DNA from: Alphaproteobacteria bacterium
GTDB lineage: Bacteria; Pseudomonadota; Alphaproteobacteria; Rickettsiales; UBA3002
Reading direction: 5' to 3'
Assembly: GCA_022841525.1 (NCBI GenBank)
Contig: JALHRI010000017.1
Coordinates: 1-36,257, forward strand
Length of the DNA stretch: 36,257 nucleotides
Both the position numbers and the translations under genes were made by a program. The notes below the pieces were generated by a model that searched no databases, had not been told where the DNA came from, and saw only the letters and a list, made by a program, of their open reading frames with translations. The number at the start of each line of letters is the position of its first letter. Position 1 is the first letter of the stretch. Positions 8,269 to 13,121 of the stretch are shown one piece after another.

Positions 8269-8847
8269 CTAGCGGTTTAGAGTAGCGGTTTTGGGGCCGA
8301 CTACCGTTACATTAGTTACAACACCGTCTGAACTATGCCTTGAGAAGGCGTGTTGAATCATTGGTTCACGCATGGCTTTTAGACCAAGCTCCAATGCCGT
8401 GTTATTACGCTCTTGTTCTGGTATCTCTTGTTTTAGTATCTCTTGTTTTGCTATCTCTTGTTTTGCTATCTTTTCTAATTTGGAATCCACGAACCTTAAG
8501 ACAGCGTGTAAGGTATGCGCTAAATTCATGGATAAGGTTCGACTGCATGATCCAGAGTTATTGAGGATTCTTTGGTTATGCTTCAAACGTTCGTCTAAGA
8601 ACCGAGAATAGTCTTTCAGGACTTCATCTTGGGGATTGCTATGCAGCAACCCGCTCAAGCCGTTTTGTATGGCAATACTGGCGTCTCTGCATGCCTGTTG
8701 CTGCGCCGGTGATAGGGGGTTTTCTTCCGTTTCACAGGCGTCAAAAAAGCGCTCTACCATCTGATGATGCGTCTCCATGAACTCATGAATGCGCTCTTTC
8801 AGTGAAGCTCTATCACTTGCGGTATGAGAAGGTACATTATCCTGCAT
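8269..8847 (-). CDS. Hypothetical protein with KQEI pentapeptide repeats
   Basis: A soluble, helical protein of 192 residues with no recognised domain. The N-terminal half is charged (LKERIHEFMETHHQMVERFFDACETEENPLS). A short tandem array, roughly I-A/L/P-K/E-Q-E in four copies, lies before a C-terminal tail. The repeat comes from an in-frame 15-bp DNA duplication (8411-8470). A GTG at 8853 is an alternative start; the ATG at 8847 is preferred. It sits about 60 nt upstream of the gene ending at 7654, in the same direction, and probably shares its mRNA. Confidence 0.55.
   Translation of the reverse strand: MQDNVPSHTASDRASLKERIHEFMETHHQMVERFFDACETEENPLSPAQQQACRDASIAIQNGLSGLLHSNPQDEVLKDYSRFLDERLKHNQRILNNSGSCSRTLSMNLAHTLHAVLRFVDSKLEKIAKQEIAKQEILKQEIPEQERNNTALELGLKAMREPMIQHAFSRHSSDGVVTNVTVVGPKTATLNR
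8411..8470. repeat. Four tandem copies of a 15-bp coding repeat
   Basis: The unit TCTTGTTTTGCTATC occurs four times head to tail, the last two identical and the first two with 2-3 substitutions. It lies in frame within the minus-strand gene at 8269-8847 and encodes a repeated pentapeptide (AKQEI-like). As a multiple of three, copy-number change would keep the frame. Confidence 0.9.
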
Positions 8848-9038
8848 CGCCACAATATACGGGCAAAATACGTCAGTTTGATGACAATCTTGCTACCCGT
8901 TACAGCGATTATCGCATGACTTGCGGCGGAAGGAGTAAAAAAGACAATCGATGATTCCTCTGGCCGGACATGCTTACGGAAAAAGTTCGAACCGCATTTG
9001 GGAGTTTATCGAGTCAATTCAGAATTGGAAACTGCCTT

Positions 9039-12422: not shown

Positions 12423-12725
12423 ATGAAACATCGCACATTTCGTACATTCACTGTCCTCTTGATTGCGCTAGGCGTTGCCTCATGCCGCCCCCCTTCTTTG
12501 TATATGGTCGAGCCTGCAGGGCCGAAAGAATATAAACTCGGATGGGAAGATGGCTGCGATACGGGTGTATCGTCGGTTTCAGCGGGGATTTTCAAGTCCG
12601 CGTTTGGCTTTCGCAAGCGACCAGAGTTTCTCGACAATCAACTCTATAATACCGGTTGGAACGAGGGTTTTGGTTACTGCCGCTTCGCGATGGATGATGT
12701 GAACAAGGGCTCGATCTTCAAGTAA
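12423..12725 (+). CDS. Small secreted lipoprotein, unknown function
   Basis: A 100-residue protein with a lipoprotein signal: basic MKHRTFR, a hydrophobic core, and lipobox VASC with lipidated Cys21. The mature part has two matching half-motifs, YKLGWEDGCDTG and YNTGWNEGFGYCRFA, each a G-W-x-[DE]-G phrase with a cysteine, so a structural disulfide is likely and DsbB is encoded nearby. It is probably anchored in the outer membrane facing the periplasm. No enzymatic motif is seen. The ATG lacks a Shine-Dalgarno sequence and lies 6 nt from a -10-like TACTAT. Confidence 0.75.
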   Translation: MKHRTFRTFTVLLIALGVASCRPPSLYMVEPAGPKEYKLGWEDGCDTGVSSVSAGIFKSAFGFRKRPEFLDNQLYNTGWNEGFGYCRFAMDDVNKGSIFK

Positions 12726-12792
12726 GTTCAGCTTACGCTTGAGTTTCACACGATTTCTTTTACATGCTGATAGCGCGTAATTTCGACGCTTT

Positions 12793-13045
12793 GGGGGGAT
12801 AGCTCAGTGGCCAGCCTTGTGGCGCTTGAGCCAATACTCTAACCGCTGATGACTGCGGGATAAAAATCGTCATGCTGGGGGGATAGCTCAGTGGCCAGCC
12901 TTATGGCGCTTGAGCCAATGCTCTAACCGCTGATGACTGCGGGAAAAAAAATCGTCATGCTGGGGGGATAGCTCAGCGGCCAGCCTTGTGGCGCTTGAGC
13001 CAATACTCTAACCGCTGATGACTGCGGGATAAAAATCGTCATGCT
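12793..13045 (+). repeat. Three tandem 84/85-bp tRNA-derived repeats
   Basis: Units start at 12793, 12877 and 12962 and run without gaps into the tRNA-Ile2 gene at 13046. Each unit opens with the first 18 nt of that tRNA (GGGGGGATAGCTCAGyGG). About 25 unrelated nt follow, then an inverted copy of the tRNA D arm ([AG]CTCTAACCGCTGA), then a tail with the inverted pair ATGAC/GTCAT. Units 1 and 3 differ at one base. The D-arm start and its inverted copy can pair (TCAGCGG/CCGCTGA), so each unit forms a hairpin. No unit can fold as a complete tRNA. Confidence 0.92.
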
Positions 13046-13121
13046 GGGGGGATAGCTCAGCGGTTAGAGCAGGGCGCTCATAACGCCTTGGTCGTGGGTT
13101 CAAATCCCTCTCCCCCCACCA
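13046..13121 (+). tRNA. tRNA-Ile2 (anticodon CAU, lysidine type)
   Basis: A 76-nt tRNA: acceptor GGGGGGA/TCCCCCC, D arm GCTC-AGCGGTTA-GAGC, anticodon stem GGGCG/CGCCT with loop CTCATAA (anticodon CAU), T arm GTGGG-TTCAAAT-CCCTC, A discriminator, encoded CCA. The GAGCAGG...CTCATAA...CCTTGGTCG pattern matches the minor isoleucine tRNA whose C34 is changed to lysidine by TilS, not initiator or elongator Met. A hairpin CCACCC/GGGTGG follows at 13122-13142. Confidence 0.9.

Follow-up and report, generated by a model that had tools for sequence, protein, structure and literature searches.

Tandem partial copies of a tRNA beside the functional gene occur in the chloroplast trnF and trnI pseudogene arrays, which are simple partial duplications. 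MITEs are short, non-coding elements found at many loci and apparently rely on an enzyme acting in trans. REP and REPIN sequences, the CGTC- and GTAG-tagged repeats and the Rickettsia palindromic elements are likewise small non-coding hairpins that encode no protein of their own and occur both dispersed and in tandem; CGTC repeats are reported to be common in alphaproteobacteria, without a dedicated transposase (PMC3116915, PMC3733652). The genomic islands mapped by Islander at tRNA genes show an intact tRNA with a displaced 5′ fragment, in the same orientation, upstream of it; such islands are kilobases long and carry an integrase (PMC4383910).

The locus analysed here, in front of the tRNA-Ile2 gene of an alphaproteobacterium of the order Rickettsiales, shares its layout with the Islander islands, its small non-coding hairpins with the REP-type repeats and its short non-coding form with MITEs, but departs from each of them. 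Unlike islands, its units and their relatives measure 45–105 bp between the tRNA copies, have no integrase gene in the window (by which we mean the whole stretch of DNA analysed, 36,257 nucleotides) and contain an inverted D-arm copy and a conserved hairpin core. In contrast to REP-type repeats, the tRNA-associated units lie almost only at tRNA D-loops and combine a copy of the local tRNA's 5′ end with an inverted copy of its D-arm; their core showed neither a GTAG nor a CGTC tag, and they are not associated with Y1 transposases. No terminal inverted repeats like those of MITEs were recognised in them, and their direct copies are bounded by the tRNA 5′ end rather than fixed in length. The units have antisense copies specific to the host tRNA, which ordinary MITEs and REPs lack; and each unit in the window, unlike those of the chloroplast arrays, carries a foreign core and an antisense arm.

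Tandem Repeats Finder reports an array with a period of 84, 3.2 copies, 95% matches and a score of 501 at 12792–13060. It consists of three head-to-tail units of 84, 85 and 84 bp at 12793–13045, and its end abuts the start of tRNA-Ile2(CAU) exactly, so that the description given by an earlier sequence-only reading, three units running directly into the real tRNA, is accurate. Within each unit, nucleotides 1–18 of the tRNA in the sense orientation are followed by a 20-nt core (CCAGCC-TTRT-GGCGCTTGAG), 6 or 4 letters, the antisense D-arm and a tail of 27–28 nt:

12423–12725, plus strand: upstream ORF of 100 aa with a lipoprotein-like start
12726–12792, plus strand: spacer before the array, probable site of the original tRNA promoter
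12793–12876, plus strand: unit 1 (84 bp), with sense nt 1–18 at 12793–12810, core at 12811–12830, antisense D-arm at 12837–12849 (13 nt) and tail at 12850–12876
12877–12961, plus strand: unit 2 (85 bp), with sense copy at 12877–12894, core at 12895–12914, antisense D-arm at 12919–12933 (15 nt) and tail at 12934–12961
12962–13045, plus strand: unit 3 (84 bp), with sense copy at 12962–12979, core at 12980–12999, antisense D-arm at 13006–13018 (13 nt) and tail at 13019–13045
13046–13121, plus strand: intact tRNA-Ile2(CAU) with encoded CCA, 70.3 bits to RF00005

ARAGORN labels the gene at 13046–13121 ‘Met (cat)’; its anticodon loop, CTCATAA, fits Ile2, which we take to be its identity. The spacer probably holds the original tRNA promoter, judging from where the corresponding spacer lies in relatives; a search of 12726–12792 for the sigma-70 consensus gave no match.

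The sole difference between units 1 and 3 is at unit position 16 (T/C), which makes them the pair already noticed as differing by one base. The sense copy of unit 3 is identical to the tRNA at 18 of 18 positions, and those of units 1 and 2 have one T/C change. The inverted D-arm copies (13, 15 and 13 nt in units 1, 2 and 3) are 100% complementary to the tRNA, and the antisense similarity between unit tail and tRNA was matched by only 0–1 of 1000 dinucleotide shuffles. The proposed hairpin TCAGCGG/CCGCTGA is present literally in unit 3 alone; the sequence in units 1 and 2 is TCAGTGG. Other pairings are favoured in the minimum-energy fold. The view that the array goes beyond a tRNA duplication, and joins sense and antisense pieces in one module, was borne out. 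A degraded full tRNA copy was rejected as the origin of the tail, because in the sense orientation the tail aligned to tRNA nt 19–76 no better than shuffles did; a colinear antisense extension into the anticodon arm was weak (shuffle p 0.01–0.08) and was likewise set aside.

With the array plus tRNA as a query, we found one match in the organism's own genome and no other Ile2 unit there, and tRNA-Ile2 therefore looks to be single copy. This genome is a draft of 274 contigs with a contamination estimate of 5%, so the real copy number of the array could exceed three. Elsewhere in the window, a 15-bp tandem repeat (4.1 copies, 8410–8471) lies in a minus-strand ORF at 8269–8853 and encodes KQEI repeats.

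A search with the unit tail of 344 genomes of the order returned a first homologue, one unit before tRNA-Ile2 in a genome of another family (G258). Its 5′ end is that genome's own (GGGGGCATAGCTCAGCGG), and its core and antisense arm are the same as those in the window. We then searched the 344 genomes for the core, allowing at most one mismatch, and obtained 14 places in nine genomes. In 13 of these a tRNA 5′ copy precedes the core, and the tRNA concerned follows downstream on the same strand, except that in one case the contig ends before the tRNA; the remaining place lies in a coding region. A sequence model built from 12 of the core places found 12 new places outside the training set, at E-values up to about 1e-4, plus one tandem neighbour. 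Ten of the new places immediately precede a tRNA gene, one (G342) is at a contig end after a tRNA-Ser 5′ copy, and one (G256) is away from any tRNA. The family of units has a constant order, namely the 5′ end of the local tRNA, the core GCCAGCC-N4/5-GGCGCTTGAG and an antisense copy of the D-arm of that tRNA, followed by the intact tRNA. The host tRNAs are Ile2, Val(GAC), Ser(UGA), Ser(GGA), Ser(CGA) and Ser(GCU), and units are present in six families of the order (f1, f24, f5, f19, f21 and f23). The own genome (G000) has further loci before tRNA-Ser(UGA) on contig C33 and tRNA-Ser(CGA) on contig C23, which gives five tRNA-associated core copies and no others. Occurrence in relatives was thus looked for and found, which argues against a neutral slippage product without relatives.

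Tandem copies are common, and elsewhere there are two each at Ile2 of G259 (identical), Ser(GCU) of G259, Ser(GCU) of G003 and Ser(UGA) of G334, and decayed copies at Ser of G262 and G263 and at Val of G262. Four genomes of the same family as the window's (G001, G003, G004 and G007; loci L009, L058, L059 and L060) have the same upstream gene followed by tRNA-Ile2, without the array, which means that the array either arose in a locus that is otherwise stable, between the presumed promoter and the tRNA, or has disappeared from all four. Among 385 genomes of the class outside the order there was one good case, at a contig end in G362, which is likely a family member in another order. In this genome the core also occurs three times (L153, L155 and L157) within an apparent IS30-type transposase coding sequence. 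We also scanned 84,980 species genomes with exact patterns, one for two Ile2 5′ ends 68–98 bp apart and one for a sense plus an antisense D-arm; apart from the window, which served as the positive control, there were no matches, and both patterns were too strict for the family. Contigs in drafts of this group tend to end at units (G259:C101, G342:C89, G362:C161), and the units can be mistaken there for pseudo-tRNAs or assembly errors.

We compared the anatomy of 24 units. As a rule, the sense copy runs from the mature tRNA 5′ end, or a few letters from it, into the D-loop, where it stops after a G; its length varies (16–21 nt), and the core adjoins it without a gap. In G263, G341 and G054 the sense copy seems to reach 5–10 letters into the leader. 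The antisense piece, about 25–36 letters past the core start, has 8–15 exact letters covering about nt 13–26 of the D-arm. In 22 of the 24 units it fits the unit's own tRNA beyond shuffles (p at most 0.017), the exceptions being the decayed Val unit and one Ser(GCU) unit of G259, and for most units tRNAs for other amino acids gave a poorer antisense match. The element body, of about 60–73 bp, comprises the core, a short linker, the inverted copy of the host-tRNA D-arm and a variable tail; the distance between tRNA copies stays within the range given above in all units except two composite ones. The antisense piece often makes up the 5′ side of a hairpin. On average, the region after the core folds into a structure of greater stability than its shuffles do (mean z −1.68, with 12 of 20 values below −1); in several units the core itself forms a short hairpin.

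The Ser(UGA) units of G000 and G258 have bodies that are 92% identical, in contrast to 77% for the tRNAs and 69% for the sense copies. This fits a body that moved and took up its sense copy from the local tRNA; alternatively, the whole locus may have been transferred and the tRNA then replaced. Between G258 and G259, the sense copy (17/17), core (20/21) and antisense arm (12/12) are kept, whereas the tail and both flanks have diverged, as would be seen after separate insertions of one element or under selection on the parts kept. Clustering of bodies by locality or by host tRNA gave no clear signal (mean identity 0.62 versus 0.63).

Partial tRNA copies of other kinds were noted in the same group. 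At tRNA-Ser(UGA) there is a second unit type, made of the tRNA 5′ half (nt 1 to about 41, to the anticodon loop) and a conserved tail GGGTGAAGGTTGGA..GTTTTA..GTCGCCGAAAGGCAAATTTT, which stands directly before the tRNA at L013 (G000:C33), L066 (G258, minus strand), L087 (G263) and L124 (G342); in G000 and G258 the D-loop unit lies at −171 and the 5′-half unit at −89. Just downstream of tRNA-Ser(UGA), TGGGACAnTTCTGGGACAGTT is conserved in L013, L066 and L087 and recalls integrase arm sites. Mirror-image 3′ units, in which AACCCCC complementary to the T-arm and a hairpin precede a sense copy from the T-loop to CCA, lie 80–126 nt downstream of tRNA-Ile2 at L055 (G002), L059 (G004) and L061 (G005). 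At tRNA-Thr of G000 (L027) only a 3′ copy was noted.

A core-like hairpin repeat is dispersed away from tRNAs in four genomes, with 5–9 matches per genome where at most 0.1 is expected from the E-value limit. It is an intergenic, longer form, GGA(C)GAG..GAGGACTAGCGACCAAG.GGGAGCGCAGCC-N5-GGCGCTTGAGCG, found at the following loci:

G016: L112, L129, L133–L137
G023: L114, L128, L130–L132
G334: L111, L138–L143
G011: L110, L144–L146

A five-copy tandem array of this repeat, of about 66 bp, is present on G011:C80. At L129 and L137 of G016 the core sits between two copies of a 23–29 bp palindrome, once in the opposite orientation; these duplicated palindromes look like paired CGTC-type REPs.

Rfam gave only tRNA matches in the window, and none to the units or the dispersed element. 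Plasmid and phage records held no match to the unit, the phage matches of the Ser query being tRNA-Ser genes, and our literature search found no description of such units. An origin from viruses was rejected: core matches in viral contigs are not near tRNAs and their number is about that expected by chance, by our estimate; a tandem Ile2-like match (L065) proved to be two real tRNAs, and a stricter Ser-type pattern gave 0 matches.

The reading we favour, to which we give an even chance, is that a miniature hairpin element, non-coding and non-autonomous, inserted at the D-loop of tRNA-Ile2 and is present in the array in three tandem copies. The element body would enter the tRNA D-loop; nt 1 to about 18 of the tRNA would be duplicated during insertion, one D-arm copy ending up inverted, and the duplication would leave the tRNA intact, with only an upstream piece gained. 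Two features count against this reading: at many loci the copies begin at or near the mature tRNA 5′ end and vary in length, for which a simple target-site duplication of fixed length gives no account, and antisense copies specific to the host are foreign to ordinary MITEs and REPs. That the copies start at this end may reflect selection for an intact tRNA, because a shorter duplication would have broken it. Three copies could later have come about through slippage, through unequal crossing-over or through further insertions into that site. Replication slippage, proposed earlier, accounts for the copy number but not for the unit, the core of which is common to different tRNAs and families. The element might be moved by a D-loop-specific recombinase acting in trans or by a hairpin-recognising transposase. 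No transposase or recombinase gene lies near the array in the window, where the neighbours are housekeeping genes, and Y1_Tnp is not associated with carriage (3 of 17 carriers, 3 of 23 other genomes). In its effect on the host the element is probably close to neutral, and the tRNA may be driven by its original promoter upstream of unit 1 or by a substitute in the last tail.

The units are invariably upstream of, and on the same strand as, the tRNA they copy, which would also suit a cis-acting RNA leader. Such a leader would be transcribed with the tRNA and regulate its maturation, the 5′ copy competing for pairing with the 3′ acceptor strand and the antisense arm for pairing with the D-arm. 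In folding tests, which were thermodynamic only, with no co-transcriptional model, the predicted acceptor-stem probability fell from 0.97 to a mean of 0.32 in the presence of the unit, and to 0.00 for unit 3 of the window plus the tRNA. The stable hairpin after the core speaks for a leader as well, as do the parts kept between G258 and G259, which could also mean selection and in that case count against the mobile reading. On average, however, the interference was due to the sense copy: the acceptor stem had a mean probability of 0.23 with the body shuffled, and still just 0.54 with all of the unit shuffled. Since on average the core and the antisense arm, conserved as they are, interfere no more than a shuffled body does, the role as an RNA decoy, antisense control or processing leader put forward in the sequence-only reading is unsupported. 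At four loci the tRNA folds at a probability of at least 0.95 despite the unit, and patchy presence, the decayed Ser copies of G262 and G263 and the absence of units from relatives all disfavour an essential regulator. We consider a regulatory leader unlikely.

The units could also be scars of tyrosine recombinases, left by deleted islands or by attP-only mini-elements: integration of an island in the 5′ half of a tRNA displaces a 5′ fragment, and the D-arm would hold the inverted core-binding sites. Islander accepts a 5′ fragment upstream of an intact tRNA for real islands (PMC4383910), partial tRNA copies are a known outcome of integration (PMC9897764), the inverted D-loop copies resemble recombinase core sites, and 3′ and anticodon-loop partial copies exist at other tRNAs of the group. 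Yet no island-sized version of these short units was seen, the units of the window contain no gene, the window has no integrase gene, and independent deletions would not be expected to give a uniform small size with a conserved core, so scars seem to us unlikely. Local template switching, in which replication at a tRNA hairpin jumps strand and back, independently at each locus, with slippage thereafter, predicts the sense–antisense–sense order around the D-loop and copies that always adjoin the tRNA they resemble. It leaves unexplained the 20-nt core conserved across different tRNAs, families and dispersed sites, and the bodies that are more alike than their host tRNAs; disfavoured already by the shared core, it is in our judgement very unlikely. 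The fragmented draft and its contamination estimate would allow an assembly artefact or a private neutral duplication, but the several differences between units and the equivalent arrays in independent genomes make this hardly credible.

Returning to the miniature element, a variant that we judge unlikely is a target-complementary element, the antisense D-arm of which, as RNA or single-stranded DNA, would guide it to a matching tRNA D-loop and be rewritten in each host, while the 5′ duplication spares the tRNA; such an element may also tune tRNA maturation. Taken together, the data point to a family of miniature elements, so far undescribed, whose insertion at tRNA genes leaves the genes intact. 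If the family is as described, it raises the questions of which enzyme moves the units, whether the antisense arm is an insertion guide, and how an essential single-copy tRNA is expressed behind a self-complementary leader of 250 bp. In that case tRNA D-loops would offer an insertion niche to elements some 65 bp long, rebuilt with an inverted copy of each new target, and this target-matched complementarity would be a property absent from REPs, MITEs and ordinary island scars.
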